NCBI RefSeq assembly: GCF_016863115.1
Contig: NZ_BOOG01000036.1
Span: 1 to 64,000, forward strand
Source: Sphaerimonospora thailandensis
GTDB taxonomy: Bacteria; Actinomycetota; Actinomycetes; Streptosporangiales; Streptosporangiaceae
Direction: 5' to 3'
Length of the DNA: 64,000 nucleotides
Below the pieces are notes generated by a model. The model worked only from the letters and a program-made list of their open reading frames with translations. It made no database searches and was not told the DNA's origin. Shown one piece after another: positions 47,273 through 63,557 of the stretch; position 1 is the stretch's first letter, and every line of letters begins with the position of its first letter. The position numbers and the translations under genes were made by a program.

Positions 47273-47863
47273 TCACCGGATAAGGCGTTCCACATCACGC
47301 CAGAACTTGTCGAAGGAGGCCGCGTTCCTCCTGGCCTGTGCCATGTCGAAGACCGCTGCGAGCGGGGCCTGGTCAATGGTCTCCTTGTACGAGGTCCCGT
47401 CGATCTTCTGATGGGTGAGCCATCCCTTGGCATCTCGGATACTTTCGGGATTCGAAGGGGGCTGTAACGGGTCGGCGAGCCCACGGTGCCCGGCCAGCGA
47501 CGCGGCAGCGGCCAGGAACCACGCCTCGAACTCCCGGTTCGCCAGCACGACTGATATCTCCTTGTCATTCCGTGCGGTCTGCGCTCGCTTGAGCAGAGCG
47601 GGCCCATAGTCGGCAGGGCAATCATCGTCCGCGTCGAACAGCACCAGGACTCCCCCTGGACCGGTTACCTGACGCGACGCCTGGAGGACGGCGTTTTCCA
47701 CCCCGCCCTGCGCGATCAGCTTGCCGCGGGGTATGCGGTGCGGCTCCGGAATCTTGGCGTCCCATATGCCGCAATCCTGGGTGATCCGACGCAGCAGGAC
47801 CGGTAGCGCAGTTACTTCGCCGTAGCCTTCGACGATCGAGGCGATTGTGATCCGCACGCTCAT
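47273..47863 (-). CDS. DUF4276 (Toprim-like) partner protein
   Basis: Protein of 196 aa of the DUF4276 family. Seen: 'IVEGYGEVTALPVLLRRI' (Glu 12 and Glu 16, as in Toprim cores), 'GVLVLFDADDDCPADYG' (acidic D-x-D, Asp 77 and 79) and 'VVLANREFEAWFLAA'. These fit a Toprim-type metal-binding nuclease core (inference). Its ATG overlaps the stop of the AAA ATPase (ATGA), a tight two-gene unit similar in logic to OLD-ATPase/Toprim and PARIS-type (AriA/AriB) immune pairs. Confidence 0.82.
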   Translation of the reverse strand: MSVRITIASIVEGYGEVTALPVLLRRITQDCGIWDAKIPEPHRIPRGKLIAQGGVENAVLQASRQVTGPGGVLVLFDADDDCPADYGPALLKRAQTARNDKEISVVLANREFEAWFLAAAASLAGHRGLADPLQPPSNPESIRDAKGWLTHQKIDGTSYKETIDQAPLAAVFDMAQARRNAASFDKFWRDVERLIR

Positions 47864-49053
47864 TCGCCGCCCTCCGGTCGGAGTTGGCGACCTCGCATCA
47901 ACTCGCCCACCGTGGCCAGCTTGTCCTTGACGAGACCACGACTGATCTCATCGATTCCCCCGATTTCTGTGACACCGCCGTCGATCGTCACCACGCGAAC
48001 CCAGTCCGGATCGATGTCCTCTCGTTCAAGCAGATCAGCGCTCTGGGTCGTGACAATGACCTGGCATCGCTCGCTGGCCTCCGCCAGCGCGTCGAACAGC
48101 GCCCCGGACGCGGCCGGATGAAGCGCAGTCTCCGGCTCCTCGATCGCGAGCAGCGTCGCCTTGCCTTCAAGGACGACAGGCTGGAACAACGCCGCGAGCA
48201 CCCCTGCTGCGTGTAGCGTCCCCTCAGAGATCGATTCAGGGCCGAAAGCCCGCTCGCTTTCGCGAGTCCGCAACTCCACCGTCGAGTAGGGGCCCGCGAG
48301 CCGCTGGTCCACGCCGGCGGTCCCGGGGACGATCGCCGACATGTAGTCATCCAGGCGAGCCTTGAAGACAGGGAAGTCCCGCTTCAAAGCTCCGAGCACT
48401 TCTCCCAGGCCTTCCCCTGAATAACCGAGCTGTCTGCTTACTCGTTCGGGCTCGACACGCCGCATGAGATCGGTGTCCAGGTGATAGAAGAGCATGGCCC
48501 GTAGTGCCTGGTAGACCTCGCTGAACTCGCCCTGTGTGGCTGCCAGCGGGAGGTAGAGGCGATCAGGCTCGATCTCGCCGCGCGTACGGCGGCGAGTGCC
48601 ATTTGTTTCCCCGCCTTGAACGATCCGGCCCGCCTCCACCCTGAATGCGGCCCACAAGGGCTCATCCTCGCCGTCCTGTAGATAGCATCGCTCGTGCCGG
48701 ACGATCAAAGACCCATGGCTGGTGAGATCCCGGCCGATGGTGAAGCCGTACAGGACGGGGATCCGCTGTCCGCGCACGTCGATTGAGAGTTCCAGTTCGA
48801 TGCTGAACTCATCCAACGCTTCGGGAACACGTCGGATCACCGCGTCCAGACCACCCCGTTTGGCTACGGCATCGGCTGGGGTCGATCCCAGAACGTCGGC
48901 GACAAACGACAGCGCATCGATGAAATTGCTCTTCCCCGCACCGTTCGGGCCCACCAGGATGAGCAAGGGTGTGAAAACGACTTCGCAGGAAGCGATGCTC
49001 TTGTAGTTTGCCACCCGGACCCGGCCCAGGGCTGGTGCCGGCTGCTTCATCAC
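47860..49053 (-). CDS. OLD-like AAA ATPase (AAA_21/SMC-type)
   Basis: ATPase of 397 aa with ABC/SMC-like architecture. Seen: 'RVRVANYKSIASCEVVFTPLLILVGPNGAGKSNFIDALSFVADVLG' (Walker A, residues 35-42), 'SISEGTLHAAGVLAALFQPVV' (signature region), 'LLAIEEPETALHPAASGALFDAL' (Walker B with catalytic Glu) and 'QVIVTTQSADLLER' (H/D-loop). Such proteins are the sensor or motor half of overcoming-lysogenisation-defect, Gabija, PARIS and retron effector systems. It is the first gene of the pair with DUF4276. Confidence 0.88.
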   Translation of the reverse strand: MMKQPAPALGRVRVANYKSIASCEVVFTPLLILVGPNGAGKSNFIDALSFVADVLGSTPADAVAKRGGLDAVIRRVPEALDEFSIELELSIDVRGQRIPVLYGFTIGRDLTSHGSLIVRHERCYLQDGEDEPLWAAFRVEAGRIVQGGETNGTRRRTRGEIEPDRLYLPLAATQGEFSEVYQALRAMLFYHLDTDLMRRVEPERVSRQLGYSGEGLGEVLGALKRDFPVFKARLDDYMSAIVPGTAGVDQRLAGPYSTVELRTRESERAFGPESISEGTLHAAGVLAALFQPVVLEGKATLLAIEEPETALHPAASGALFDALAEASERCQVIVTTQSADLLEREDIDPDWVRVVTIDGGVTEIGGIDEISRGLVKDKLATVGELMRGRQLRPEGGE

Positions 49054-49339
49054 ACCCCCCTCGCCGTCACGACATCAGCCTGGACGGTGGCTGCGGCTGC
49101 CATCGAAGTCTGATTCCGATCGGGGTATCGATCCATTCGATCACGCCCGGCACAGCCGTCCCGGAGCAGATTGGCCCCATCCCAGGTCTGGACCTCCAGG
49201 TTGCTGCGACTTGACTTCGCAGCCACCTCACTCGCCTTCCACATGAACGGAGTCAAACACACCTGCTATCAGGCCGGTGTTCGACACCTGTACGACATCA
49301 TCACAGACGGCGCCGCGTGGTGCAGGGAGTGCTGACAAG
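49054..49339. other. Intergenic gap without recognised gene
   Basis: Nearly 290 bases between the ATPase promoter side and the methyltransferase stop. A plus-strand frame ending at 49335 (HMNGVKHTCYQAGVRHLYDI) looks mildly protein-like but has no good start and is not recognised. Confidence 0.25.
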
Positions 49340-50089
49340 TCAGTTGCTCGTTGCACGAGGGAACGGGGCGGCCAGACGGAACAGGGCGGCCAGGAGGAAG
49401 GGGACACCGAAGACGGGTGAGTCCGGAGGCTGCTCCTCCATCTGACGTATCTCCACCTCTTCGTAGTCGGAGAAGATCCAACGCAGTTCCTCGGGGGAGA
49501 AGGCCAGGCCGCCATGCAGGCGGCCTTCGCGGTAGAGCTGCTCGTCGGGCAGCTCGGAGCCCATGGCCCCCGCGGCGAAGCAGGAGATCGCGAGATGACC
49601 GCCAAGGGTCAGCAGCCGGTCCACCAGGTCCAAATAGCTCACCCGGCGGTGCGGCGGCAGGTGGTGCAGGCAGCCCGAGTCGTAGACCAGGTCGTACGCG
49701 CCGGATTGGAACTCGGCCGTGAAGGCGTCGCCGCAGTGGAATCGGACATCGACGCCGGACTCCCGGGCACGCTCCTCAGCCCAGGCGACGGCCGTCGGAG
49801 AGAGGTCGATCGCGTCGACTTCGAAGCCGAGCGAGGCCAGGTAGACCGCATTGCGGCCCGGTCCGCACCCCAGGTCCAGAGCGCGCCCCGGCCTGAGCAC
49901 CTCCCGCTCGACGTAGGACACGAGGCTCTCGTCGGGCTTCCTGGTGAAGAAGGGGACCGGCTTCGATCGGTCGGTATAGAAGGTGTCCCACCAGGGCGAC
50001 GCGTTGCCCGTCCACCGGTCGGCGTCCGAGGAGAACAGCCGGTCGAGCAGGGCCATGACATCGTCCATCGAGCGGATGCTTCGGTTCAC
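49340..50089 (-). CDS. Class I SAM-dependent methyltransferase
   Basis: Methyltransferase of 249 aa, Methyltransf_25/TehB-like. Seen: 'ALDLGCGPGRNAVYLASLGFEVDAIDLSPTAVAWAEERARESG' (motifs I and II), 'AYDLVYDSGCLHHLPPHRRVSYLDLVDRLLTLGGHLAISCFAAG' and an N-terminal Trp-rich segment 'WWDTFYTDRSKPVPFF'. GTG 50089 is preceded by GAGGAGAG. The pattern recalls thiopurine/tellurite methyltransferases; substrate unknown. Confidence 0.88.
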   Translation of the reverse strand: MNRSIRSMDDVMALLDRLFSSDADRWTGNASPWWDTFYTDRSKPVPFFTRKPDESLVSYVEREVLRPGRALDLGCGPGRNAVYLASLGFEVDAIDLSPTAVAWAEERARESGVDVRFHCGDAFTAEFQSGAYDLVYDSGCLHHLPPHRRVSYLDLVDRLLTLGGHLAISCFAAGAMGSELPDEQLYREGRLHGGLAFSPEELRWIFSDYEEVEIRQMEEQPPDSPVFGVPFLLAALFRLAAPFPRATSN

Positions 50090-50243
50090 GTGGTCTCTCC
50101 TCAGGAGCTAACTCGGTCTGCGGCAGGGACAGCAGGCACAACTGCACGATCGGGCGATTTGCCCCGAAAACATGCGAGAAGCTCCCTTCTTCTAGAATGC
50201 GCCGATAGTCTGTCGTATCCCTAGTCTCAGGAGTGAGCAGGAC

Positions 50244-50693
50244 TTGCGTCACGTCTCCCTCATCGTCGGCACACTCGTCGCGGCGGTAACCGTTCCCCTG
50301 GCCGCCGGCCCCGCCCAGGCCGCCAGACCTGCCGTTGAGATCACGAAGATCTACTACAACAGTCCGGGCAGCGACCGGGGTGGCAACCGCAGCCTCAACG
50401 CCGAGTACATCACCATCCGCAACAACACCAAGAAGAAGATCAGCCTGAAAGGCTGGACCATCCGCGACAAGACCGGCTTCCGCTACACGTTTGGCAAGGT
50501 CGCCTTGAAGTCCGGCAAGAAGCTCACCCTGCACACCGGACAGGGCCGGGACGGCACCCGCGACGTCTACTGGAACCGTCGCTGGTACGTCTGGAACAAC
50601 ACCGGGGACAAGGCTTATCTGCGCAACGACGCTGGAAAGCTGATCGACTCCTGTGCGTACAAGGGCACCCGGCGCGGCTACAAGAACTGCTGA
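50244..50693 (+). CDS. Secreted lamin-tail-domain protein
   Basis: Exported protein of 149 aa. Seen: a Sec signal peptide (residues 1-27, cleavage after AQA) and a lamin tail (LTD) Ig-like domain: 'VEITKIYYNSPGSDRGGNRSLNAEYITIRNNTKKKISLKGWTIRDKTGFRYTFG...LTLHTGQGRDGTRDVYWNRRWYVWNNTGDKAYLRNDAGKLIDSC'. Bacterial LTD domains are usually extracellular modules that bind DNA or surfaces. Start is TTG 50244, with AGGAG upstream. It converges with the large membrane protein to its right. Confidence 0.88.
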   Translation: MRHVSLIVGTLVAAVTVPLAAGPAQAARPAVEITKIYYNSPGSDRGGNRSLNAEYITIRNNTKKKISLKGWTIRDKTGFRYTFGKVALKSGKKLTLHTGQGRDGTRDVYWNRRWYVWNNTGDKAYLRNDAGKLIDSCAYKGTRRGYKNC

Positions 50694-50760
50694 CCGAGGG
50701 GCGCTCAGGGCCTCGCTCTCCTCGCCGAGGGCGGGGCCTTCCGCCGGCGGCCTGTCACGG

Positions 50761-53373
50761 CTACCGCAGGGAGCGGAGGCCGTCGCGTATCCGGCGGACG
50801 TCCTTCAGCCGGGCCTCGTAGGTCGCCCCGATCAGGAGCAGCGCCAGGCCGCCGGCGGCCATCGGGACCCAGCGCGGCACGAGCGTGATGAGCTGTGCGA
50901 TCCAGGGCGCGAGCTCGTGCAGGGCGACGGCGGCCAGCGTGAACCCGCCCAGCACGGCGGGCGCCTGCAGCCGGAATCTCGCTCCGGCCAGCAGGACCGC
51001 CATCGACACCAGGCCGAGCACCAACGGCCGGATCCAGCCCTCGGGCTGGGCGTAGAGCGCCAGCAGACTCGGGAGCAAGGAGAAGGCCAGGCCCGAGCCG
51101 TACGCCTGCCACGACGAGGACTCCCGCACGTGCCACCAGCCGATCACCAACAGCACCAGGGAGAACGGCACGGTGTAGGCCTCCACCGTCTCCACCCCGT
51201 CCGCGAAGAGCCGGGTCCAGCCGGCCAGCAGCAGAAAGGCGGTCCCGGCATATCCCGCCCCCCGCCGGTCGGGGCGCAGAGCCGTACCGAACCCGAGGAC
51301 GCCCGCGACGGCGCACGCGAGGCTGAACATCCGCAGATCCACCACCAGGAACAGCCCGATCGACCCGAGCACATATCCCGCGATTTCCACCGCCGTCCCC
51401 GGAACGGCCTTGAGCCGCGCCGCGACGATCGCGGCCACACAGGCCACCGCGAGGAGGACGAAGGTGATGAATCGCGGCTGGACGTCGGCGGCGATCCACA
51501 GCGCGACCGCCTCGCCGCCGGCCAGCAGGGTCGCGAGACCGGCGGCGCCGATACGTACGGCAGGCTCGCGAGCGATCACGACCGTCACCGCGGCGGTGAC
51601 GGCGAGGACAGCCAGCGTGATCAGTGTCGCGGGCTCGGACGCGAGCGCCCAGATACCCGCCACCAGCACCGCCGCGAGCGCCGGCACGCCCGCGAGGGGG
51701 ACCCGTGCCGAGAGTGCGGCAAGCGCGACGGCCAGCCCGACCTGTACGGATGTCACCGCCGGATAGGGCAGGTCGAGCGCGACAGGGCAGACGGCCACGG
51801 CCACCGCGCCGAACGCCAGGGTGACCAGGGTGAGCACCTGTCGCAGGTCGTACGGCGTCCCGCCCGATGACTCATCCGGCGACTCGTCCGGCGACTCGGC
51901 CCGGTCAGTCCCGGGAAGCCGCCGGAGCAGCAGCGTGGTCGCCGCGGAGGCGAGCGCGAGCATCGTGAGCACGACCAGGTCGGGTGGCCCGGCGAGGAGC
52001 CACGGGGCGCCCGATGCCGAACCGACGCCACCCGAACTGACGCCACCCGAACCGACGCCGCCCCAGACCCCGACCCGGCCCAGTGGTCCGGCGAGGGCGT
52101 CGGCCACCGGCGGCAGCACCGGCGCGGACAGCAGGGCCATCATGATCGCGGCTGTGATGGCGGCGGGCATCGCGACCGCCTCGACCGCCGCGGCGGCCGT
52201 ACGGCGCGCGAGAACCGCGAGAACGGCCACGAGCAGTGCGGCGACGGGGCCGGGGACGACCGCCCAGTGACCCTCCAGAACCAGGCGGGCGGGGAGCGCG
52301 AGCGCACTGATCAGTGTGATCGTCGACGCCACCGCGAGCACGACCGGCCACGGGCTGCTCACGGGCCCGCTCACGGGCTTGATTGCGGGCCTGCTCGCGC
52401 GAACGGCGATGACCAGCCCCGTCACCACGGCGACGAGCAGCGCGGCGGACAGCCTCCAGACGGTGCGCGGTTCGTACGCGTCGAGAGACTCCACGATCCC
52501 GACCACCGACCCGAGTGACCAGGTGAAACCGAAGCAGACCGCCACCGCCACCCGCGGCGTGGCGAGCCACAGCGTGGCGTCGGCGCAGGCGGTGGCGAGC
52601 AACGCCGCGACGAGCCAGACCGCGCCCTGGTCGAACGCCAGCACGGTGAGCGGAAACTGCGCGAGCACGACCGCCACGGGAACCGGCCACCTGAGCCGGG
52701 CAAGCCGCCCATAGATAGCGAACACCCCGGCGACGACCGTGATCAGCCCGGCCGTGTAGTGCTGAGGATCGATTCGGTCGAGACCGGCCAGCCCCAGGTG
52801 CCAGGCGGCGTACCCGTCGAGGAACAGCAGCGCGAGGCCGAGCAGGGCGAGGGTCTCCGCGGTGGCGGCCAGACCACGCTTCCGCAACCCGAGCGGGGCC
52901 GCGAGGACCAGGCCGGTGAAGCCGAGCAGGATCGCGGCGCGGCCGCCGATGCCGAGGTGCCCCCAGCTCACCGCCGTGAACACGATCGCCGCCACGACCA
53001 GCAGGATCCCGCCGAGTGCCAATAACAGGTTCTGTACGGCTTTCGCGGACAGGTCCTTCGGCCGCTCGGTGCCGGGCATCGGCGGCGGGAGGGCGCCGGA
53101 GGCGTCCCCGGACTGCCCGGTCCCGACTTCAGTCCCGACCGCGGTTCCGATTCCAGTTCCGGCGCGGGCGGTTCGCAACATCACGAGAAGCTCGGTGCGC
53201 CGGGCAGTGAGCTGCATCTCACGTCGCCTGAGCTCGGCGCGCTCCACATCGACCCGCCACAGTTCGGCGGCGACAGGACCGCTCAGCGGCAGCGCGCAAA
53301 CCGGGCAGGCGGTGTGCGGGCCGGCGAGCGGCTCGCCGCAGTCGGGACATCGCGGGGGCGCGCCAGGATCCAT
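50761..53373 (-). CDS. Zinc-ribbon polytopic membrane protein (SCO7613-like)
   Basis: Protein of about 870 aa. Seen: an N-terminal zinc ribbon C-x2-C...C-x2-C (CPDCGEPLAGPHTACPVC), a charged coiled stretch (residues about 38-70, 'RVDVERAELRRREMQLTARRTELLVMLR'), a Gly/Thr-rich linker, then more than twenty hydrophobic segments to the end. This plan matches the actinobacterial 'SCO7613 C-terminal domain' membrane proteins, whose function is unknown. ATG 53373 is chosen over a TTG at 53391. A Gly/Val/Ser-rich degenerate repeat (GVGSGGVSSGGVGS) sits near residue 450. Confidence 0.82.
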   Translation of the reverse strand: MDPGAPPRCPDCGEPLAGPHTACPVCALPLSGPVAAELWRVDVERAELRRREMQLTARRTELLVMLRTARAGTGIGTAVGTEVGTGQSGDASGALPPPMPGTERPKDLSAKAVQNLLLALGGILLVVAAIVFTAVSWGHLGIGGRAAILLGFTGLVLAAPLGLRKRGLAATAETLALLGLALLFLDGYAAWHLGLAGLDRIDPQHYTAGLITVVAGVFAIYGRLARLRWPVPVAVVLAQFPLTVLAFDQGAVWLVAALLATACADATLWLATPRVAVAVCFGFTWSLGSVVGIVESLDAYEPRTVWRLSAALLVAVVTGLVIAVRASRPAIKPVSGPVSSPWPVVLAVASTITLISALALPARLVLEGHWAVVPGPVAALLVAVLAVLARRTAAAAVEAVAMPAAITAAIMMALLSAPVLPPVADALAGPLGRVGVWGGVGSGGVSSGGVGSASGAPWLLAGPPDLVVLTMLALASAATTLLLRRLPGTDRAESPDESPDESSGGTPYDLRQVLTLVTLAFGAVAVAVCPVALDLPYPAVTSVQVGLAVALAALSARVPLAGVPALAAVLVAGIWALASEPATLITLAVLAVTAAVTVVIAREPAVRIGAAGLATLLAGGEAVALWIAADVQPRFITFVLLAVACVAAIVAARLKAVPGTAVEIAGYVLGSIGLFLVVDLRMFSLACAVAGVLGFGTALRPDRRGAGYAGTAFLLLAGWTRLFADGVETVEAYTVPFSLVLLVIGWWHVRESSSWQAYGSGLAFSLLPSLLALYAQPEGWIRPLVLGLVSMAVLLAGARFRLQAPAVLGGFTLAAVALHELAPWIAQLITLVPRWVPMAAGGLALLLIGATYEARLKDVRRIRDGLRSLR

Positions 53374-53436
53374 GTCACTACGATCCCGCAAACCGCGTGC
53401 CCGCGCACGCGCCAGTCCCAGCCTCCCGATCCCTGT

Positions 53437-55365
53437 TCAGATGTCGTCCCCCACGGTGAGCAGGATATTGATCGCGCTGGTGATGAGCTCGGCCGCGTCG
53501 TGCCGAGCCAGCGCGGCCGGGGTGAGGGACGGGCGTCTGGCGTAGTTCGCCGCCACGAGTTGACCGCGCATGCGCGCCCACTCGGGAAACACCGCCAGAG
53601 CCTCTGCCAGCTGATGGAGGCGCTCAGGTGAGGCCCCCCGGTTGTGCATCCATTGGAAGTTGATCGAGAGCACCGACTGACTGGCACCGGTGTAGATGCT
53701 CCAGACCGCGGCCTCGTCGGTCCCGAGGCTGAACCGCGCGGTGGCCGAGGGATATTCGCCCGTGCCGAAGTAGTACCCCCGGAAGGAGGGGTGGCGCTCG
53801 GCGTGCCGGTAGACGGCCAGCAGCGTCTCGGCCACGTCCGGCGGGCAGTAATGCTGAATCGCGTGGAGGAGGCTGTCTTCATCCCATTTGCCGTCACCTT
53901 GAGAGACCTGTCGCTCGTCGAGGGCTCTCGCCGGCACTGGTCCCAGCGTGCCCACCTCGGCAGGGGCCGTGTCGTAGTCGGCGGCCGGAAGCGGATCACC
54001 GAGTGCGTGCTGGATGGCGATCGCGACGGACTCGAGGAAGCTGATGACGTCGTCGGCATCGCCGGACTTGATGGGGAGCTTCTGACCGGGATCGTCCGGA
54101 TCGTGGTCGGCCGTGTGCGCGATGTTGTTGCGGCGCCGGGCGATGTCCCTGAGCTGACCCCGCACGTCGTCGGCGGTGACGCGACTCGTCGGGTCCTGCT
54201 CGGTGAGGATCTCCGCGACCTTCACCCAGAGATTGACGGTGCTGACGTACGCGAAGCCTTCCTTGATCTTGTCGGGGTTCTGGAAGGTCATGAACGCGAA
54301 GAACTGTTCCAGGTGCGTACGGAACATCTCGCCCAGTGGGGCGGCACGGTAGTAGACCTGCTCGAACAGCTCAACCGGGATGGAGAGCTTGTTGAACTTG
54401 GGAGGCCGGTTCCCATCGGGCTGGAGCGCGAGAGCCACGGCCCGGTCGACGATCTCCCGGGTCACCCAGTGGTCCAGTGCGGCCACCGACTGGGTCCAGG
54501 CCGCACGGTAGAGATCGGTGACGTCGAAGGCGCCGACGCCGAGTCGTTCCAGATTCCGACCGCCGTGCACGAGCTGCCGGGCGTATCCGAGGTTCTGCTG
54601 GAACTGCTCGAACGCCCCGGGAATCTCGTCCGGGAACTCCTCGGACTCCGGCTCGGGCTCGCCACGGGAGGCCGACGGCGTGAGCACACCGGCCTCTGCG
54701 AGCTTCGCGCGGAGCATGTCCGTGGTGACGCGCCGCGCCGGGTTCGCCCGCCCGGTCGCGTCGAAGGTGAGGCCTTCGCTTTCCAGGACCTCACGGGGAT
54801 CCTCGGCCCGCTCTGGGTCGAGCCAGTGGAAATTGGGGGAGATCGTGCCACCCGCTTGGAGCACGCGATGGACGTTGTCGTCGGCGGACTGGGCCATGAA
54901 ACCACCGACCGACTGGGCTGACATACCGACCAGGTCGGCGATGTCGCGGTATGTCGTCCAACTGCCCGGCGTCACCCGTGCCAGGGCCGCGAGAACGGTC
55001 TTCCATCGCGGATCCGTGTAGGAGCGGACCTGAGCGGGCTGCCGTCGCGCCCGGTACTGCCGGCCCAGCTCCCGGTAGAGCTCGACACCCGGATGGTCCT
55101 CCAGCGCCCGCACCCCGGCCGAGGTGATCGCCCAGCCGTTCCTCTTGGTCATCCATCCGATGGAGGCCGCCTCCCCGGTACGGAAGCCCAGTTGGGATTG
55201 CCAGCGGACCTGGCCGTGCCCGTTGAGAGCCTGCTGCTCGGGTGCGATCGAGACCTTCTCGGCGACGGCCCTCCGCACCTCGTCGGGCGACATCGGGCGG
55301 CCGGCATCCCGGAGGATCTCCATTGCCGCACGAAGGATCGGGGCGATGTGCTCGGCAAAGGACAT
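53437..55365 (-). CDS. Mrr-N / ATL-like / HEPN-like composite protein, 642 aa
   Basis: Multidomain protein I do not know as a named family. Residues 8-95 resemble the Mrr N-terminal winged helix ('RAAMEILRDAGRPMSPDEVRRAVAEKVSI...WMTKRNGWAITSAGVRAL'). Residues about 118-212 match the DNA-binding half of O6-alkylguanine transferases ('VLAALARVTPGSWTTYRDIADLVGMSAQSVGGFMAQ...VHRVLQAGGTIS') without the catalytic Cys, as in ATL proteins. Residues about 255-455 are helical and end in R412-NNIA-H417, the R-x4-H motif of HEPN ribonucleases. Residues 485-642 form a further conserved-looking domain. It lies next to a TIR protein. A DNA-sensing, RNA-cutting defence protein is my inference. Confidence 0.7.
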   Translation of the reverse strand: MSFAEHIAPILRAAMEILRDAGRPMSPDEVRRAVAEKVSIAPEQQALNGHGQVRWQSQLGFRTGEAASIGWMTKRNGWAITSAGVRALEDHPGVELYRELGRQYRARRQPAQVRSYTDPRWKTVLAALARVTPGSWTTYRDIADLVGMSAQSVGGFMAQSADDNVHRVLQAGGTISPNFHWLDPERAEDPREVLESEGLTFDATGRANPARRVTTDMLRAKLAEAGVLTPSASRGEPEPESEEFPDEIPGAFEQFQQNLGYARQLVHGGRNLERLGVGAFDVTDLYRAAWTQSVAALDHWVTREIVDRAVALALQPDGNRPPKFNKLSIPVELFEQVYYRAAPLGEMFRTHLEQFFAFMTFQNPDKIKEGFAYVSTVNLWVKVAEILTEQDPTSRVTADDVRGQLRDIARRRNNIAHTADHDPDDPGQKLPIKSGDADDVISFLESVAIAIQHALGDPLPAADYDTAPAEVGTLGPVPARALDERQVSQGDGKWDEDSLLHAIQHYCPPDVAETLLAVYRHAERHPSFRGYYFGTGEYPSATARFSLGTDEAAVWSIYTGASQSVLSINFQWMHNRGASPERLHQLAEALAVFPEWARMRGQLVAANYARRPSLTPAALARHDAAELITSAINILLTVGDDI

Positions 55366-55479
55366 CGGGGGCTTCCTTTGTGCGATCGGGGGAACCTGTA
55401 GATCAAGACTAGGACGGTGGCGTACTGCCCGCCATGCGGATCGAGACGCCGACCGATAACGGTGGCATCACCCGGACAG

Positions 55480-56733
55480 TCACGCGGGATCCACCAGGCG
55501 GTCAAGAAGGCGCCCACGGTGCACGGCCCAGACCACGGACAGGAGGTTGCCGTACGTGCTGGTTCCCGAGCGCACCGACTGCGTTATCGCACGAACGTAG
55601 GGTGCGGTTCGGCCCCGGAACAGATGCGCGTGCACGTCTATGGCCGCGTAGAGGGCCAGCGGGTAGTACTCGCGCCAGCCGAAGGGATCGCTGACGGGTG
55701 TCCTGTGCACCTGCTCCACAGCTGTTCTGTCGCGCAGGTAACGAGTTATCGCCGCTGGGATGGAACTCATTCCCGCCACGGTGTCCCGGGCACGGAGCTT
55801 CGGCGGACGGATGCCGCCGACCGGACCCAGGACCGGCAGATGGCCCACCGGTGCTGAGGACGACCACAGCACTTCTGAGTAGTAGATCCACCGGGTCGTA
55901 CGCCAGCCGATCATGTCGCCGAAGGTGATCAGGTCGTCCGCCGCCTTCCGCATGGCCACCAGCTGTGTGGTCAGCCCGAATCTCCCTTCACTGTGGGACA
56001 TCCAGAGCTGGTCAATCCCGCGCAGGTCAGCGGGAGAGATCTTGTCGACATCGTCCATTCGGATCATGTACGACCGGGGCTTCAGCAGATCGCCTCCAGC
56101 CGCCGCCACCAGCAGTCTGGCGGACTCCCGATCAGCCTCCTGCCAGCGGCGGGCAGCCAGGAGATCGTCCAGTCGCTCGAAGTCGAGTCCGCTTTCCAGC
56201 CTGCCGGGAAGATCGACGGAGTCCAGCGCGAACGGGTTCGCCACGCGAAGCCGGCTGAACTGGGGGACGGTCTGACGGATCCGTGAGATCAGGTTGGACA
56301 GGTCGGCGGCGTCGTTGCGGAACCTGAGTTCGGCGGTCTGGCGTCGTGCGAGCGGCTTGAGCGGCTCCGGAAGGTCGGCCTCGGTGAGCCGAGGCGTCTT
56401 CTCCAGCATCACGGGGATCACATGTACACCGGCCTCCAGCGACGCCTTCACCTCGCGATGCACCCAGTCGTCGGGGTCGTCGATTCGCCGTCCGCCGGGG
56501 CCGTCGCCGCACCATTGCGGGCCTATGAGCACAAGCAGCACGCAGGCCCGGCGCAGGGCGGTCTCCAGCACCTCGTCGAACAGCGAACCCAGTTCGATGG
56601 ACCTGCTGGATCGGAACACGCGGTCGGCGCCGAAGGCCTGACGCAGCACCAGGTCGACGTGCGCCGCTGTCGGACCGCTGTCCTTGCCGCGGAAGCTGAT
56701 GAATATCAGATCCCGCTCCACGGAGTCCGTCAC
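55480..56733 (-). CDS. TIR-GUN4 fusion protein
   Basis: Protein of 417 aa. Residues about 8-155 form a TIR domain ('LIFISFRGKDSGPTAAHVDLVLRQAFGADRVFRSSRSIELGSLFDEVLETALRRACVLLVLIGPQW', then 'DDWVHREVKASLEAGVHVIPVML' with Glu 94 as the probable NADase residue). Residues about 183-285 match GUN4 ('FERLDDLLAARRWQEADRESARLLVAAAG...ISPADLRGIDQLWMSHSEGRFGLTTQ'), a tetrapyrrole-binding fold known from chlorophyll synthesis. The C-terminal third is unassigned. GTG 56733 has AGGA seven bases upstream; GTG/TTG further left is less likely. TIR enzymes degrade NAD or make signals in immunity; GUN4 would be the sensor (inference). Confidence 0.85.
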   Translation of the reverse strand: MTDSVERDLIFISFRGKDSGPTAAHVDLVLRQAFGADRVFRSSRSIELGSLFDEVLETALRRACVLLVLIGPQWCGDGPGGRRIDDPDDWVHREVKASLEAGVHVIPVMLEKTPRLTEADLPEPLKPLARRQTAELRFRNDAADLSNLISRIRQTVPQFSRLRVANPFALDSVDLPGRLESGLDFERLDDLLAARRWQEADRESARLLVAAAGGDLLKPRSYMIRMDDVDKISPADLRGIDQLWMSHSEGRFGLTTQLVAMRKAADDLITFGDMIGWRTTRWIYYSEVLWSSSAPVGHLPVLGPVGGIRPPKLRARDTVAGMSSIPAAITRYLRDRTAVEQVHRTPVSDPFGWREYYPLALYAAIDVHAHLFRGRTAPYVRAITQSVRSGTSTYGNLLSVVWAVHRGRLLDRLVDPA

Positions 56734-56801
56734 TGGCCGTTCCTTTCCGGAATTCCCCGCCGTTCGTGCCACAAGTACGGGATTGTGCCGAAGTCACCGC
56801 C

Positions 56802-56839
56802 CCGAGATAACCGAGATCACCGAAGACCACCGAAGATCA
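56802..56839. repeat. Four 9-10 bp tandem iterations upstream of the TIR gene
   Basis: CCGAGATAA, CCGAGATCA, CCGAAGACCA and CCGAAGATCA follow each other directly between the XRE-regulator stop and the TIR-GUN4 start. They are roughly one helical turn apart and could be a binding array for the adjacent regulator. Confidence 0.45.
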
Positions 56840-58123
56840 CTGAGGTCCGCGTCCGCCCAGGATCAGCCACAACTGAGGCCACAGGTCGGCCACGGAGGGA
56901 TGGGTGCGCCGACGGCGGATGGCATTGGCGAAACAGCGCAGATCCGCTCTGATCGTCGCGGAGTCGACGGTGCGGATGTCGTCCAGTACATCGGCGATCA
57001 GCGAGCAGGCGTCCGCGATGGACCCGTCGTCGGCGAGCGCGAGTGCGCGCCTGACCGTGAAGCGTGCGCGGGACCGGCGCGATGACGGGCCCAGGCCGGG
57101 CAGCGCCCGGCCGAGCACCTCCGCGGCCTCACCGGGTCGGCCCAGGTCATGGAGGCACCATCCGGTGACCATCGTGGTCATGATGTCGACGGGGACCGAG
57201 GTGCCGAGCGGCCGGGCGACCGCTCCCTCGCCGCCGGGACGCGGAGGGGCCGGGGCGTCCCGGCTCGCGCGCTCCCAGAGCGCGTGAGCACCGTCGATGG
57301 CGGACCGGCAGCTGTGGTCGTCGCCCACCAGTGCGTGGCCCTGCGCCTCACGAAGCGCCGCGAGCCAGCGCAACCGGGGTGAGAGCGCGTGCCGGTGTCG
57401 GACCCGAGCCGCCAGATGGACCGTCGTGGCGGCCTCACCTCGGTAGAGAGTCATCAGGGCACGCCGTACGTCCGCGTACTCGGCCAGTTCCTGATCCGCT
57501 CCGTCAGCGGCGAACTCCACCGCGAGATCCGTCCACCAGGCTCCGGCGGAATCGTCACCGGACTCCTGGGCCATCCAGCCGGTGAATTCGGCCGCCCGCG
57601 CCGCGAGCGTGAGCAATCGCTTGCGCGAGCGGCCTCCGGAATGGGGGATCGCCGTCCGAGCGGCATGGACCTGAGCGATCGCGATCGGTAGCACCATGCC
57701 GGGAGGACTCGACCGTCCTGCTTGGATCAGCAGGTCGAGCAGCGAGGACAGGGCATCGATGTCACCGGATGCGGCGGTGAACCGCATGCTGACCGGACCG
57801 GTCAGATCAGCGGACGCGAACTCTCCCGGTCCGCCGCCCGGCAATCTCAGCAACCACTCGGCGTCGAGCGTCCGGCCGGACGACTCCGCCGCCGCCTTGC
57901 CGTCGGGCGGTCGGGCCGCATGGGCGAGTGCCCGTAGAGCGCCGCCGGCCTTGAGAGCACCGTCACAGAGTCGCGCGAGGTCAGGTGTCGGCGGCTTGTT
58001 TCCGGTCTCCACCTTGGAGAGATGGCTTTTGCTGTAATTGACCGCCGTCGCCAGTGCGCTCAGCGACAGGCCCGCGGCCATACGTCGCCGGCGCAACTCC
58101 TCTCCGAAGGACGAATGCGCCAT
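56837..58123 (-). CDS. XRE-family regulator with helical C-terminal domain
   Basis: Protein of 428 aa. Residues about 5-60 are a Cro/C1 helix-turn-helix ('FGEELRRRRMAAGLSLSALATAVNYSKSHLSKVETGNKPPTPDLARLCDGAL'). The remainder is helical, Ala/Leu/Arg-rich and TPR-like ('GWCLHDLGRPGEAAEVLGRALPGL'), typical of long actinomycete regulators. It is upstream of and co-oriented with the TIR-GUN4 gene and divergent from the GTPase-lipase operon, so it may control both. Confidence 0.88.
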   Translation of the reverse strand: MAHSSFGEELRRRRMAAGLSLSALATAVNYSKSHLSKVETGNKPPTPDLARLCDGALKAGGALRALAHAARPPDGKAAAESSGRTLDAEWLLRLPGGGPGEFASADLTGPVSMRFTAASGDIDALSSLLDLLIQAGRSSPPGMVLPIAIAQVHAARTAIPHSGGRSRKRLLTLAARAAEFTGWMAQESGDDSAGAWWTDLAVEFAADGADQELAEYADVRRALMTLYRGEAATTVHLAARVRHRHALSPRLRWLAALREAQGHALVGDDHSCRSAIDGAHALWERASRDAPAPPRPGGEGAVARPLGTSVPVDIMTTMVTGWCLHDLGRPGEAAEVLGRALPGLGPSSRRSRARFTVRRALALADDGSIADACSLIADVLDDIRTVDSATIRADLRCFANAIRRRRTHPSVADLWPQLWLILGGRGPQ

Positions 58124-58249
58124 AGTGCCCTTCCCGCCAATGACACGTCCCCCGTTTCCTGTTGAGGAGAGTAACAGGAAACGGTTGAAGGGGGCATATC
58201 ACTTCGACACTCTTGTGGTCGTACAGTGATCCGACAAGGCGGGATATCT

Positions 58250-58924
58250 GTGCCCATTCCCCTCATTATTTACGGCCTCGGCATCGGCCTCGGCACGGTC
58301 ATCTCCTTCTTCCTGCTCATGAAGCTTCGCCGGAAAAAGTTTCACATTGCTGTGCTCGGGGTCAGGTACACCGGAAAGACCACGCTGATCAACTCGTGGC
58401 GCGGCACCTGGGTGGACGACGATCCCGGTCGTACGCAGGCGCCGCGCATCCATCCCAAGACGAAGCTCACCGCGAACGGCATCCGTCTGACCTTTCTGGG
58501 CCTGGGTGATCTGAGCGGTGAGGAAAAGGCCTGGCCCCAGTGGGAGAACCGGGTGGCCGAGAGCCGATACGTGCTTTACCTGGTGGACGCGCGCATGCTC
58601 GCCGGACTCGGGATGCCGCCGGAGCGGGACTGGCATCGGGTCGACGACGATGCCGGACAGATCGGGAGGTGGCTGAAAGACGGGCAGGTCTACCTCTGCA
58701 TCGTCGTGGTGACGCATACCGACGAAGACCCTCGATCACCTCAGGTCGACGAGGCCGCGTATCACCAGATCATCGTCGACCAACTCGACCGGATCCTGCT
58801 GCGACTCGGCGGTGACGCCATGGTCCGGGTGGTCGTCGGGTCCCTGAAGGACCGGCCGTCAGCGGACCGCGTCACGTCGAAGATCATGGAGCACGTCGTG
58901 GCTCACGAAAAGGAACTGCCATGA
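58250..58924 (+). CDS. Membrane-anchored small Ras/Arf-like GTPase
   Basis: GTPase of about 224 aa. Seen: an N-terminal membrane helix (residues 4-25), then G1 'GVRYTGKT' (37-44), G3 'LGDLSG' (D87-x2-G90), and G4 as THTD (155-158) in 'IVVVTHTDEDP', a variant of N/T-K-x-D. Between them 'YVLYLVDARMLAGLGMPPERDW' matches small GTPase beta-strands. GTG 58250 is preferred because AAGGCGGG lies upstream; GTG 58226 lacks a binding site. First gene of a compact four-gene operon with a lipase. Likely a membrane-bound molecular switch; GTP dependence is predicted only. Confidence 0.85.
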   Translation: MPIPLIIYGLGIGLGTVISFFLLMKLRRKKFHIAVLGVRYTGKTTLINSWRGTWVDDDPGRTQAPRIHPKTKLTANGIRLTFLGLGDLSGEEKAWPQWENRVAESRYVLYLVDARMLAGLGMPPERDWHRVDDDAGQIGRWLKDGQVYLCIVVVTHTDEDPRSPQVDEAAYHQIIVDQLDRILLRLGGDAMVRVVVGSLKDRPSADRVTSKIMEHVVAHEKELP

Positions 58925-59442
58925 GAAGAGCCGGCTACGTCGACATCGTCTACGTAGAGTTTCCCGATCGAGAGCCCTTTGCCTGGCGGTACGGGCATGT
59001 GCTCGGCGCGGACGAGCGTACGGCGGTCCATCGGGACTTCGTGGACCTGGTCACCAACGCGTCCGAGCAGAACGACACCCGCCTCGGGCGGTACGTCCTG
59101 TCCGGTTCGCGGCTGCTGGTGGAGTTTCCGGTCACCGCCAACGGGTCGAGCAGGAAGTCGAAGAGACAGGCGGAGAGGCAGCGGCTCAGGGCCTCCCTCG
59201 TGGTCACCGCTCCGGCAAGGGAGCGGACATGGACGCAGGCCGCGGCGATCGAGGCGGCCGGGATCCTGAGCGAAGGCGGGCTGACCGCCGACCCCGCCGA
59301 CATCGATCGACTGCTCGCAGAGGGGTGGGCGGGCAGGCGCCCTTTCGCCCTGGACCTGCTGTCCCGTCCGAAAGCCCAGGCGGCGCTCCTGGCACTGCTC
59401 GCCGCTCTCCTGTACCTGCTGGTCAGAAAGCTGGTGGGCTAG
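58921..59442 (+). CDS. Tail-anchored protein of unknown function, 173 aa
   Basis: No recognised domain. Residues 1-75 form a mixed, beta-like segment ('YVDIVYVEFPDREPFAWRYGHVLGADERTAVHRDFVDLVT'), 76-90 a basic stretch ('RKSKRQAERQRLRAS'), and 148-170 a single C-terminal membrane helix ('AALLALLAALLYLLVRKLVG'). It would face the cytosol, anchored at its tail, near the GTPase. ATG 58921 overlaps the GTPase stop (ATGA). Confidence 0.75.
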   Translation: MRRAGYVDIVYVEFPDREPFAWRYGHVLGADERTAVHRDFVDLVTNASEQNDTRLGRYVLSGSRLLVEFPVTANGSSRKSKRQAERQRLRASLVVTAPARERTWTQAAAIEAAGILSEGGLTADPADIDRLLAEGWAGRRPFALDLLSRPKAQAALLALLAALLYLLVRKLVG

Positions 59443-59444
59443 CG

Positions 59445-60224
59445 ATGCCGGACGATGCCCCCAAGCTCGAGAAGAAGATCGTCGTACTCCATCGTGACGA
59501 CTACAACAGGGCCAGAAGCGTGGTCCCGGAGTTGCTCACCGATCCCTTCACCACGGTGGTTCCCGTACCGCTGCGGCCTCCGCTCAGCGACGACCCGACG
59601 CTCCAGTCGATCGAGGACGTGCTCCAGCCGGGAACGCTTCTGATCCGCAACCGCTGGGACGCCGACACGTACGTCGAGGCGGCGCTGGCGTACGAGCGCA
59701 TATCGGCGGCCAAGTTCAACCTCGTCGCGGAAGTCTGCCAGATGCTCGGTGCGGCCCGGCTCGAGGTCAGGGAGATCCGTGAGGTGACCGAGGACGGGCA
59801 GGTCGGCGCGGCGATTCGGTTCCAGGCCGGTGCGGTCACCGGCTCGGTCCACGGCGTCGGCGAGTCGCTGCGGCGCGTCGCCCAGTCGATGCAGGCCCTG
59901 TGGGAGTGGCGCGGCGGCGAACCCGCCACGGACGCCGCCGCAGCGCACGCCCGCCGAGAAGGAATTCAGGACGACCCGGCCATCCGCACTCTCATCCGGC
60001 AGCGCAGCTTTCCTCAGAACGAACTCGAGGAGCACTCGCTCGAACTCGACATCAGTTCGGAGGCGCTGCGAGAGGTGCACGCCGCTGTGCACGTCGCCTC
60101 CGTCCTCCGCAAGCTCGGCCCATCCTTCGACGGCGCGTTCCAGGCCGTCACCAAGGATGCCCGGCGGCTCATCCTGACCATGAGGGTGGTTTTCCCGCCC
60201 ACCGGCCACCACCCCATCAGGTGA
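59445..60224 (+). CDS. Hypothetical cytosolic protein, 259 aa
   Basis: Unrecognised, soluble protein. Seen: 'KKIVVLHRDDYNRARSVVPELLTDPFTTVVPVPLRPPLSDDPTLQSIEDVLQPGTLLIRNRWDADTYVEAALAYERISAAKFNLVAEVCQMLGAARLEVREIREVTEDGQVG', followed by a helical C-terminal half. There is no membrane segment or catalytic motif. It starts two bases after the previous stop, between the tail-anchored protein and the lipase. Role perhaps adaptor or regulator of the operon products (inference only). Confidence 0.7.
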   Translation: MPDDAPKLEKKIVVLHRDDYNRARSVVPELLTDPFTTVVPVPLRPPLSDDPTLQSIEDVLQPGTLLIRNRWDADTYVEAALAYERISAAKFNLVAEVCQMLGAARLEVREIREVTEDGQVGAAIRFQAGAVTGSVHGVGESLRRVAQSMQALWEWRGGEPATDAAAAHARREGIQDDPAIRTLIRQRSFPQNELEEHSLELDISSEALREVHAAVHVASVLRKLGPSFDGAFQAVTKDARRLILTMRVVFPPTGHHPIR

Positions 60225-60236
60225 TCGGAGGCTGCC

Positions 60237-61220
60237 ATGTCCCGCGCGGACATCGCCCGCGAACTGCTCAACCGCCTGCTGTCCAAAGACTGGTCCATGT
60301 CCGACGAGGAGGAGCTCGGCTGGGGATATGCCATGGGCCTGCTCGCGGCGGCGACCTATGCCGACGACCCCGTGGCGGCGGCACTCGCCGCGATCAGGCA
60401 GGCCGTACGTGGCGAGTGGCGGGTGCGGATCGCCGCGACACACGACGATCACGAAGTACACGTCACCAACACCCTGATCTGCGAGTCGGACGATCTCACA
60501 TTGGTGGCCTACCGCGGCACGACCACCTTCGGGGCAGATCTGAGCGAGGACCGCATGGCCGCGACCATCCTGGGCTGGCTGGACAACATCACGAGCGCCT
60601 TGGGGCGGACCGACTACCAGGCGGCCTATCACTGGCGCGCGCTCGCCACGCTCGACGACGTCCGCCGGGCCGTGGCCGCCGCACGCGAACGTAAGGCGCG
60701 CGTCTTCATGTCCGGCCACAGCGCGGGCGGAGCGATCGCACTGATGGCCGCCCGTGACCTGACTCAGGAGTTCCACCGCGTCCACAGGGTCTTCACCTAC
60801 GGCTCACCGATGCCCGGAACGGCGGACTTCGAGTTTTCCGTCGCAAATGTGCCGGTGACGCGCTTCGAGCATGGCGACGACCCGGTTCCGTGGTTTCCGG
60901 GGCAGTACTCCCACGTCCGCGCTCCCGGCGTGGCCATGGTGGGGGAGCTCGCCGGAGGTCTGTTCCGTGGCACCCCGCTGCCCCTCTCCTGGCGCCCTGT
61001 CGGCCGGCTCCGATACCTGCATCCGCCCGGATCGGCCATCGAGCCGTCCGACCGCCGAACACCGGACGGGCACGGTTTGACCACCGGCGAGTCGAAGCAC
61101 CTCATCGAGAGGCGTCTGAAAACCCGGGGACGCCTCCGCGATTCGGTCAAGGATCACCACATCGCCGCATACCTCGCCGCACTCCGTGCCTTGACGGCGC
61201 AGGGCCCGCGACAGCCATGA
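60237..61220 (+). CDS. Class 3 lipase-family hydrolase
   Basis: Alpha/beta-hydrolase of 327 aa, Lipase_3 family. Seen: nucleophile elbow G-H-S-A-G with Ser 162, oxyanion region 'TLVAYRGTTTF', acid residue in 'VTRFEHGDDPVPWFPG' (Asp about 215) and a candidate His in 'VKDHHIAAYLAAL' near the C-terminus. No signal peptide, so it acts inside the cell, presumably on membrane glycerolipids. It is the last gene of the GTPase operon. A lipase held in check by a membrane GTPase would be an attractive membrane-damaging effector. Confidence 0.87.
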   Translation: MSRADIARELLNRLLSKDWSMSDEEELGWGYAMGLLAAATYADDPVAAALAAIRQAVRGEWRVRIAATHDDHEVHVTNTLICESDDLTLVAYRGTTTFGADLSEDRMAATILGWLDNITSALGRTDYQAAYHWRALATLDDVRRAVAAARERKARVFMSGHSAGGAIALMAARDLTQEFHRVHRVFTYGSPMPGTADFEFSVANVPVTRFEHGDDPVPWFPGQYSHVRAPGVAMVGELAGGLFRGTPLPLSWRPVGRLRYLHPPGSAIEPSDRRTPDGHGLTTGESKHLIERRLKTRGRLRDSVKDHHIAAYLAALRALTAQGPRQP

Positions 61221-61250
61221 CCCGGACCGGCCTGCGACGATTGGAACCCG

Positions 61251-61757
61251 ATGCAGCCCATCCCACGGCTGACCGCCCGGATCATCCTCGTCGACGCAGA
61301 GGATCGCCTGCTCCTCTTACAGGGGTACGGCAGCGGCGAGCGGCAACATCGGCTTGAATGGACCACCCCCGGGGGAAGGGTCGGCGAAGGCGAGTCGCTC
61401 ACGCAAACGGCCTCGCGGGAGTTGCGCGAGGAGACCGGCCTGCTTGTGCCGCCCGCCGACCTCGGCCCGGTCGTGGCGGTCAGTTCGGGAACCTGGCGGC
61501 GGGACGGAACGACGGTCCTGGGGATCGACACGTTCTTCTACGCCCGCTTCTACGCCCGCATGGGAGAGACGACTGTGAAGACCTCGGGCCGGGACGAGTT
61601 CGAGCAGTCGCTGATCGTCGCGCATCACTGGTGGAGCATTCCTGAGCTGCGATGCTCCAACGAACGGGTGTTCCCGTCCGGTCTGGCCGGCCTTGTCGCG
61701 CAGTTGATCGGTGGGAACATCCCGGCAACGCCTGTCGCCCTCTCCTCACCGTGGTGA
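61251..61757 (+). CDS. NUDIX hydrolase
   Basis: NUDIX-family pyrophosphohydrolase of 168 aa. The NUDIX box is intact: 'GGRVGEGESLTQTASRELREETGL' fits G-x5-E-x7-R-E-x2-E-E-x-G. N-terminal strand 'RLTARIILVDAEDRLLLLQGYGS' and 'HHWWSIPEL' complete the domain. Start ATG 61251. It follows the lipase by about 30 bases and could be the operon's fifth gene, although it is also a common stand-alone type. Substrate unknown. Confidence 0.9.
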   Translation: MQPIPRLTARIILVDAEDRLLLLQGYGSGERQHRLEWTTPGGRVGEGESLTQTASRELREETGLLVPPADLGPVVAVSSGTWRRDGTTVLGIDTFFYARFYARMGETTVKTSGRDEFEQSLIVAHHWWSIPELRCSNERVFPSGLAGLVAQLIGGNIPATPVALSSPW

Positions 61758-62830: not shown

Positions 62831-62902
62831 TTACGGTATGCATCTGGACGATCACGGAAATTGGCCGAAGACCTGCGGGAGACCGCGCCTTACAGTGAAG
62901 AT

Positions 62903-63133
62903 ATGGGCATGTTGACTGTTGAACTCGACGTCAAGGCCGAGAAGGCCCTGGGCGAGCTGACTTCCGACGGCCGCTCCGCATCTGAAGCCGTCCGCGAAGC
63001 GCTTCTCATCGCCCAGCGTCTCCGTCGTATGGAACAGGCCCAAGTCGCAGCCGAGCGGTTGGCCAACGACCCCGCCGACAGGGCCGAAGCAGAAGCGATC
63101 ATGAGGGACACGGAGCACCTGCGTGCGTGGTGA
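62903..63133 (+). CDS. MazE-like/RHH antitoxin
   Basis: Small acidic protein of 76 aa. Seen: 'LTVELDVKAEKALGELTSDGRSASEAVREALLIAQRLRRMEQAQVAAERLANDPADRAEAEAIM', the ribbon-helix-helix N-terminus and long acidic helix of antitoxins paired with MazF/PemK toxins in actinobacteria. ATG 62903 with AGTGAAG upstream. Its last 11 bases overlap the toxin start. Confidence 0.82.
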   Translation: MGMLTVELDVKAEKALGELTSDGRSASEAVREALLIAQRLRRMEQAQVAAERLANDPADRAEAEAIMRDTEHLRAW

Positions 63134-63365
63134 CGTGTACAGGCTGCGCGCTCCCCGAGACGCGATGGCCCATGAGCAACGAGGTGAGCGTTTCGCGGTG
63201 ATCCTCCAGTCGGACTTCCTCGCCCACATCTCCACCGTGCGGATAGCCCCGACCTCAGCGAGTACGCCTCCCGCACATGGACCTATGGCGGCGGGTTTCG
63301 TCTGGGTTGCGGGCGGGGCAGTCGCCCGATGTAACCGCTGGTCAGACGCCGTTTTGACTGGTTGA
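63123..63365 (+). CDS. MazF/PemK-type toxin, C-terminus probably degraded
   Basis: Endoribonuclease toxin of the PemK/MazF family, 80 aa. The N-terminal half is canonical: 'RGDVYRLRAPRDAMAHEQRGERFAVILQSD', then 'ISTVRIAPTSAS'. After residue about 47 the sequence (TPPAHGPMAAGFVWVAGGAVARCNRWSDAVLTG) no longer resembles the family, which normally continues for about 30-60 residues with 'FRPEV...VLVEQ'. A frameshift or a junction with the adjacent tRNA fragment would explain this. The toxin may be inactive. Confidence 0.7.
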   Translation: MRGDVYRLRAPRDAMAHEQRGERFAVILQSDFLAHISTVRIAPTSASTPPAHGPMAAGFVWVAGGAVARCNRWSDAVLTG

Positions 63366-63366
63366 G

Positions 63367-63424
63367 CGGAGAGCGTGGGATTCGAACCCACGAGGACCGT
63401 CACCGGCCCTAGAGCGGTTTTCAA
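63367..63424 (-). repeat. tRNA-Ser(TGA) 3'-half fragment (att-like)
   Basis: On the minus strand the sequence runs from the anticodon loop (TTGAAAA, anticodon TGA) through the 3' anticodon strand ACCGC, a long variable arm (AGGGCC...GGTCCT), a perfect T arm (GTGGG-TTCGAAT-CCCAC) and the 3' acceptor strand GCTCTCC-G. The long variable arm marks tRNA-Ser. The bases upstream (63425 onward) do not supply an anticodon 5' strand, D arm or acceptor 5' strand, so this is not a working tRNA but a 3' fragment, as left by integration. Confidence 0.72.
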
Positions 63425-63557
63425 GAGCACTACGGTTCCCGCACCCCACCGCCCCTGACCTACGGCTCAGCCCTAAACAGAGATCGGACCAAATAAGATC
63501 ATCCCGAAAATATCCCGCGGGGTGAGGCCGCCGTGTCGCTCCGAGGAGGCTCGGGGT

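Follow-up and report, generated by a model that had tools for sequence, protein, structure and literature searches.

GUN4 has so far been studied as a regulator of the chlorophyll pathway, and has been described as a domain of cyanobacterial conflict systems. In excerpts from Kaur et al. (2020, PMC7159879) it occurs together with kinases, caspases, trypsin and TIR domains, is called a cyanobacterial-only domain, and its fusions are proposed to sense tetrapyrrole levels. A passage from a further study (PMC8195603) presents GUN4 as cyanobacteria-specific among effector-type domains, and extracts from two others report caspase-GUN4 proteins (PMC3501461) and variable proteins that carry GUN4-like and TIR-like domains (PMC7517822). 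A plasmid protein of Nostoc sp. C057 (P0002, WP_256874691.1) is itself a TIR-GUN4 protein. The TIR-GUN4 architecture is already known and not new, and its earlier report in cyanobacteria makes the gene described here less of a surprise than the first-pass annotation of this DNA had assumed. What is new is the lineage, a non-photosynthetic one of the Actinomycetota, the pairing with an HTH gene and its context, and the analysis of ligand residues; in the open-access literature we recognised no description of TIR-GUN4 in Actinomycetota.

The gene lies near the end of the 64-kb stretch of DNA analysed here (the window), and the features on which the comparison turns are as follows.

56837 to 58123, minus strand: gene for an HTH (XRE)-TPR regulator of the NsdA family, 428 amino acids, upstream of TIR-GUN4 and its predicted operon partner.
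56741 to 56748, minus strand: GGAAAGGA, resembling a ribosome-binding site, 7 nt upstream of the TIR-GUN4 GTG, as read in the sequence.
55480 to 56733, minus strand: TIR-GUN4 gene, 417 amino acids, GTG start.
56299 to 56706, minus strand: TIR domain, a predicted NADase, residues 10–145 (TIR_2, SARM1 match, SPARTA and SARM1 folds).
56452 to 56454, minus strand: codon for Glu94, opposite the Glu of DWVHKEI in the SARM1 alignment.
55810 to 56196, minus strand: GUN4 domain, residues 180–308 (Pfam GUN4, 1z3x fold).
55483 to 55803, minus strand: C-terminal extension, residues 311–417.

The fusion is real and rare. As the first-pass annotation had read it, a TIR domain is joined to GUN4 in this gene, with both domains over their Pfam cut-offs (TIR_2, 37.8 bits against 28, E 3.1e-9; GUN4, PF05419, 98.5 bits against a curated 29.2, E 4.8e-28), and GUN4 reaching 101.5 bits in a six-frame search of the genome. 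A second in-frame GTG at 56772 would lengthen the protein by 13 residues. The nearest PDB structure by sequence is Thermosynechococcus GUN4 (1z3x, E 1.7e-17) for the whole protein and human SARM1 (E 2.3e-4) for the TIR part alone. An AlphaFold2 model, from an alignment that used 22 of the 28 motif-pattern loci described below, is of moderate confidence (mean pLDDT 60.9, pTM 0.46); its first four Foldseek matches are GUN4 structures and the fifth is a SPARTA TIR. In VIA-align the TIR part matches SPARTA TIRs at Z ∼13 and SARM1 TIRs at Z ∼12, and the GUN4 part superposes on 1z3x with Z 11.9 and an rmsd of 2.7 Å over 139 residues. The extension has no Pfam family above cut-off and is 43% identical to that of the ortholog introduced below; GUN4 structures align to the model as far as residue 373–376, and on the model the GUN4 fold may take in some of the extension, for instance a helix near residues 353–371.

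The assignment of the TIR as NADase-type is a well-supported prediction from family, fold and a conserved Glu, in line with the earlier reading. Glu94, the plausible catalytic residue, lies within DWVHREV, aligned with DWVHKEI of SARM1, and Glu occupies this position in 30/30 TIR loci examined, the window included. These 30 belong to 68 matches to the TIR (E ≤ 1e-8), found in 63/297 genomes of the family sample, and loss of the Glu was seen in none of the 30. E642 is the catalytic residue of SARM1, and 7cm7, the SARM1 E642A entry, is among the Foldseek matches of the model.

In agreement with the first suggestion, the two families tested gave no sign that the host, a soil-type actinomycete, is photosynthetic, neither Photo_RC (PF00124) nor bilin reductase (PF05996) being matched in its genome (99% complete); PF02514 (CobN-Mg_chel), a family that also includes cobaltochelatases, has a single match. 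The window gene is the only GUN4 match in that genome. GUN4 was found in 14/297 genomes of the family sample, one match in each, in 4/394 of the class sample (including two shared with the family sample) and in 1/396 of the phylum sample, this being the window's own genome. The single match in the host and in each of the 14 positives led us to reject pairing of the homotypic adaptor (EAD) kind. A model of GUN4 plus extension matched 10/341 family genomes, with up to 7 candidates scored per genome, at full length only in G167 and the window's own genome (510 and 498 bits) and at 21.7–28.2 bits in the others. A full-length match occurs in 1/15 genomes of the genus to which G167 belongs, and the single further genome covered from the window's genus matched neither the HTH nor TIR-GUN4. 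Profile scans of genome-contig and viral-contig collections returned no relative, and phage records no match. The distribution is sporadic, as would be common for defence genes.

What the GUN4 part might sense can be approached through its ligand residues. Excerpts from Rockwell and Lagarias (2023, PMC10156173) define the bilin-site motif LxNxLR in GUN4 and describe how replacement of Asn219 by Gly in the Chlamydomonas protein abolishes bilin binding and keeps porphyrin binding; part of another study (PMC8967248, 2022) gives porphyrin affinities lowered 2- to 12-fold for Arabidopsis GUN4 F191A, R211A and R211E. In our alignment the window GUN4 carries, by Synechocystis numbering, L209 to V, N211 to G, L213 to V, R214 to G and F196 to V, the LxNxLR position reading V-L-G-P-V-G, and in the ortholog the positions of L209, N211, L213, R214 and F196 are occupied by I, G, I, G and A. 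LxNxLR is kept in 4/4 canonical proteins, in 0/9 cyanobacterial plasmid proteins (nine of 28 matching plasmid records were compared) and in 0/2 of the window type. A divergent group of 29 actinobacterial proteins, discussed below, has FFPTLRNP or a near form in its place, with the Asn in 0/29 and Phe196 kept in 27/29. Core residues of GUN4 (IDxLW, S, FG, Q, GW, HL) show no variation among the window protein, the ortholog and seven cyanobacterial proteins. Because residues relevant to both bilin and porphyrin are replaced, pigment sensing by the window GUN4 is unlikely; judged from the alignment, it is unlikely to serve a bilin, the case for a porphyrin is weakened, and another ligand or partner seems more likely.

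This bears directly on the idea of a GUN4 sensor that would take up haem, a porphyrin or a corrin intermediate and let tetrapyrrole level switch the TIR, in line with the haem-like ligand suggested in the first-pass annotation; sensing of tetrapyrrole level was also put forward for cyanobacterial fusions in the excerpts of Kaur et al. (2020, PMC7159879). We now regard such a sensor as unlikely, though better placed than the other alternatives considered here. GUN4 is a tetrapyrrole-binding family whose core residues the window protein retains. Bacteria of the host's kind make haem, which counts in its favour, and some porphyrin binding may persist, given that in the Chlamydomonas protein it survives the change from Asn to Gly (excerpts of PMC10156173). 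Set against these points are the loss of LxNxLR from the window protein, the ortholog and all nine plasmid proteins compared, the Val and Gly found at both porphyrin-affinity positions (Arabidopsis F191 and R211), and the want of a bilin reductase match in the genome.

The regulator encoded upstream matches NF053720, the NCBI model for TPR-like regulators of the NsdA family (E 1.8e-37, 129.9 bits against a cut-off of 75), and no second copy occurs in the genome at E ≤ 1e-10. NsdA has a role in Streptomyces differentiation, and the regulator and TIR-GUN4 could on that ground act as a developmental or metabolic switch, tuning NAD or a signalling nucleotide as cells differentiate. We consider this improbable: the family match speaks for it, but the score against the NsdA equivalog is 33 bits, far under the cut-off of 830, and full-length TIR-GUN4 matches in only 2/341 family genomes are unlike the distribution of a developmental regulator.

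The one ortholog found among the 341 family genomes, a scarcity that counts against the explanation we prefer, lies in another genus (locus L002, genome G167). Its TIR-GUN4 is 50% identical to that of the window (49% over GUN4 and extension), and directly upstream stands an HTH gene whose product is 55% identical to the window HTH. The ortholog genes overlap by 4 nt, as GTGA; those of the window are separated by 103 nt with no overlap, which we count against reading them as a paired unit. Across the 18 kb of the ortholog neighbourhood (11 predicted genes, TIR-GUN4 itself being absent from those called) only the HTH matches in the corresponding place; other matches to the window comprise a single weak one and some of ABC type in other places, and tblastx between the two neighbourhoods gave noise only. 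A longer syntenic block was on this ground rejected, and the pair seems to travel alone. Hits in promoter and terminator scans did not exceed those in shuffles, and the empty promoter scan counts against the paired-unit reading.

Several other genes of the window may be recorded here. Directly downstream of TIR-GUN4, a 642-residue protein (53437–55365, minus) has an MGMT-type DNA-binding domain with sub-threshold Mrr_N and HEPN matches, and has no counterpart adjoining the ortholog. Divergent from the HTH gene, a row on the plus strand (58226–61220) encodes a small GTPase, whose start is hydrophobic, together with two proteins of no assigned family and a class-3 lipase, and resembles a conflict-type cluster. 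Further on (62861–63455), what are by eye a small antitoxin-like ORF and a MazF-like ORF, the latter ending at 63365, are directly abutted by a tRNA-Ser gene (63366–63455), a boundary that could mark an integration junction. An AAA_21 ATPase gene, of the putative AbiEii-toxin type, lies at 47860–49053 (minus).

Relatives of the HTH protein also accompany other TIRs. One lies within 1.5 kb upstream in 7/30 TIR loci, window and ortholog included, the six others being 35–55% identical to the window HTH; none was found within that distance in the remaining 23/30, among which we count L047, where the sequence covers ∼0.7 kb. The seven count in favour of the unit proposed below, the 23 against it. 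In four of these loci (L073, L075, L077 and L026, the last on a Streptomyces plasmid) the order is HTH, TIR, an NTPase-like gene and a membrane-type gene. By eye, the TIRs have a Gly/Asn/His-rich tail, the NTPase-like proteins (640–663 residues) a similar tail at their N-terminus, and the fourth genes (338–417 codons) a hydrophobic segment near the start; matches to nSTAND3 in L073, L075 and L077 are below the Pfam cut-off, a point against the proposal. The tails look like the amyloid-type signalling motifs of NLR systems. These operons share with the window the HTH family, a related TIR and the gene order; they differ in having tails and a separate NTPase-like gene, whereas in the window GUN4 is fused to the TIR and no NTPase-like gene adjoins. 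We propose that GUN4 stands in place of the tail and STAND-like NTPase of the sister operons.

The same loci bear on a toxin-antitoxin-like arrangement, in which the HTH protein represses the operon and holds TIR-GUN4 inactive, GUN4 being a mere surface for binding it. HTH and TIR-GUN4 are paired in both known members, and their genes overlap in the ortholog; as HTH relatives also adjoin TIRs that have no GUN4, the domain is not needed for the pairing, and we hold this arrangement to be quite improbable. Least probable is a degenerate fusion, with GUN4 a passive remnant of horizontal transfer that has no sensing role, for while the loss of ligand residues would suit it, the identity of GUN4 and extension between window and ortholog, with core residues kept, indicates constraint.

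GUN4-type domains occur more widely among actinomycetes in a second form. The other 12 GUN4 matches of the family sample are divergent (25.8–55.7 bits, one below the Pfam cut-off). Ten divergent proteins scanned with Pfam comprise six with TIR and GUN4, one with a caspase, one with a Ser/Thr kinase, one with a trypsin-VMAP-M8-TIR arrangement and one with no other family, GUN4 falling below cut-off in 2/10. A search of named genomes with the pattern [GP]F[FY]PTLRNP returned 28 loci (L080–L107), all from actinomycetes by name (12 genera and one MAG), in which the motif is present by construction; in 12 loci that only the Pfam model found, FFPTLRNP or a near form is seen as well. Eight of the motif-pattern proteins were scanned, four having a TIR and four no other family, with GUN4 sub-cut-off in one. 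In these relatives the GUN4-type domain follows, on the C-terminal side, a TIR, caspase, kinase or trypsin domain.

A gene for an SPFH/Band-7 protein lies directly downstream, on the same strand, in 27/28 of the motif-pattern loci, the contig of the 28th (L089) ending 174 bases after the GUN4-like gene, and directly downstream in 14/14 loci found by the Pfam model rather than by the pattern (L029–L042); nine loci are common to the two sets, giving ∼33 distinct loci. Band_7 (PF01145) was over its cut-off in 6/6 of the partners scanned, and their translations have, by eye, an N-terminal hydrophobic stretch. No such partner was matched in the 64-kb window, at the ortholog (there numbered L028) or at nine cyanobacterial plasmid loci; PADLOC had no match for two SPFH proteins tried, and no description in print of a GUN4-like and SPFH pair was found in the open-access literature, where the sole paper naming both has SPFH just in the title of a reference. 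The arrangement looks like an undescribed pair in which an effector-adaptor would act with a membrane protein, possibly as a two-gene conflict system.

A tree built from 44 GUN4 domains has the 29 divergent proteins as a clade (support 100), and joins window and ortholog with four canonical and 7/9 cyanobacterial proteins (support 100), the latter 11 forming their sister group (support 83); two cyanobacterial proteins, P0007 and P0010, fall outside this group. The tree and the residue table omit L091, cut by the contig start, and L100, with an unresolved residue, and take three of L029–L042. Membership of the window GUN4 in the divergent family was rejected on this tree, which with its long branches is moderate evidence. 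A C-terminal helix with W353, V367 and H368 invariant in one alignment was considered as proof of closer kinship and set aside as too weak, the ortholog having VY for VH. The simplest reading of the tree, its branches being long, would be two recruitments of GUN4, the window type lying nearer to cyanobacterial GUN4.

Taking up the observed domains, the conserved Glu, the pairing kept in one ortholog and the sporadic distribution, we propose, with a probability of roughly 0.55, that the locus is a mobile two-gene unit, an HTH-TPR regulator of the NsdA family being paired with a TIR-GUN4 effector in which GUN4 acts as sensor or adaptor. GUN4 and the C-terminal extension would form a built-in module that senses a trigger, either a protein or a small non-bilin ligand, and once triggered would switch the TIR on; the TIR, when several are brought together, would cleave NAD+ or make a signalling nucleotide. 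The HTH protein might control expression or join in the sensing, and the outcome would be growth arrest or death of the infected or stressed cell. The window GUN4 looks like a sensor re-used in a cell-suicide or defence gene pair. The C-terminal position of GUN4-type domains behind effector domains in relatives, with the cyanobacterial precedents in excerpts of Kaur et al. (2020, PMC7159879), supports a sensor or adaptor role, so that this half of the earlier proposal for GUN4 is supported and the haem-like ligand attached to it is weakened. Counting against a defence gene pair is the outcome of PADLOC on six window proteins, where TIR-GUN4 matched one model only (PD-T4-6, through its GUN4 part) and the regulator matched a few HTH models weakly.

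More tentatively, and with somewhat less confidence than an even chance would call for, GUN4 may be a general sensor or adaptor of cell-death and conflict proteins, recruited at least twice by non-photosynthetic actinomycetes: once as the HTH-coupled TIR-GUN4 near the cyanobacterial type, and once as a divergent GUN4-like domain that connects a membrane-anchored SPFH/Band-7 partner with effectors of several interchangeable kinds, among them tandem TIRs, caspase, Ser/Thr kinase and trypsin-VMAP-M8-TIR, which would make an undescribed two-gene immune system sensing a cue other than chlorophyll pigment. With TIR-GUN4 and the wider GUN4-like family in hand in bacteria that have no photosynthesis, GUN4 as an immunity sensor with a non-tetrapyrrole ligand becomes a testable question, for which the loss of binding residues makes a definite prediction, and the SPFH-linked family supplies many proteins to test.

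Among known systems, the ternary conflict system with VMAP (Kaur et al. 2020) finds no MoxR, vWA or VMAP in the window protein and nine neighbours scanned (47860–61757). The PD-T4-6 model PDLC04062 matches the window GUN4 segment (E 1.8e-27, model positions 304–432 of 450); PD-T4-6 is a kinase family, described as a kinase in Streptococcus in a passage of PMC11514479, whereas the window protein has no kinase match in Pfam. Kinase regions are matched by further models of PD-T4-6, for example in L009. Identity with PD-T4-6 was rejected, only the GUN4 part of one model being matched and no kinase being present. PDLC04062 matches P0001, P0002 and L080; it contains a GUN4 segment, and GUN4 proteins that lack a kinase are matched as PD-T4-6 in PADLOC.

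The TIR NADases SARM1 and SPARTA share the TIR fold with the window protein, and SARM1 also the Glu motif DWVH(K/R)E(I/V), while their ARM/SAM or APAZ part is absent from it (TIR_2 and GUN4 only in Pfam). Canonical GUN4 of Synechocystis and Arabidopsis, a cofactor of Mg-chelatase, has the same fold and core residues, but belongs to oxygenic phototrophs and carries LxNxLR with F196 and R214; the window GUN4 is fused to a TIR, is without these residues, and comes from a genome without a reaction-centre match. P0002 differs in its photosynthetic host, in a record without an adjoining HTH gene, in having only 34 residues past the GUN4 match, and in a BLASTP alignment that starts at window residue 94 and leaves most of the TIR parts unaligned, yet it shares with the window protein an N-terminal TIR and a C-terminal GUN4 without the bilin motif.
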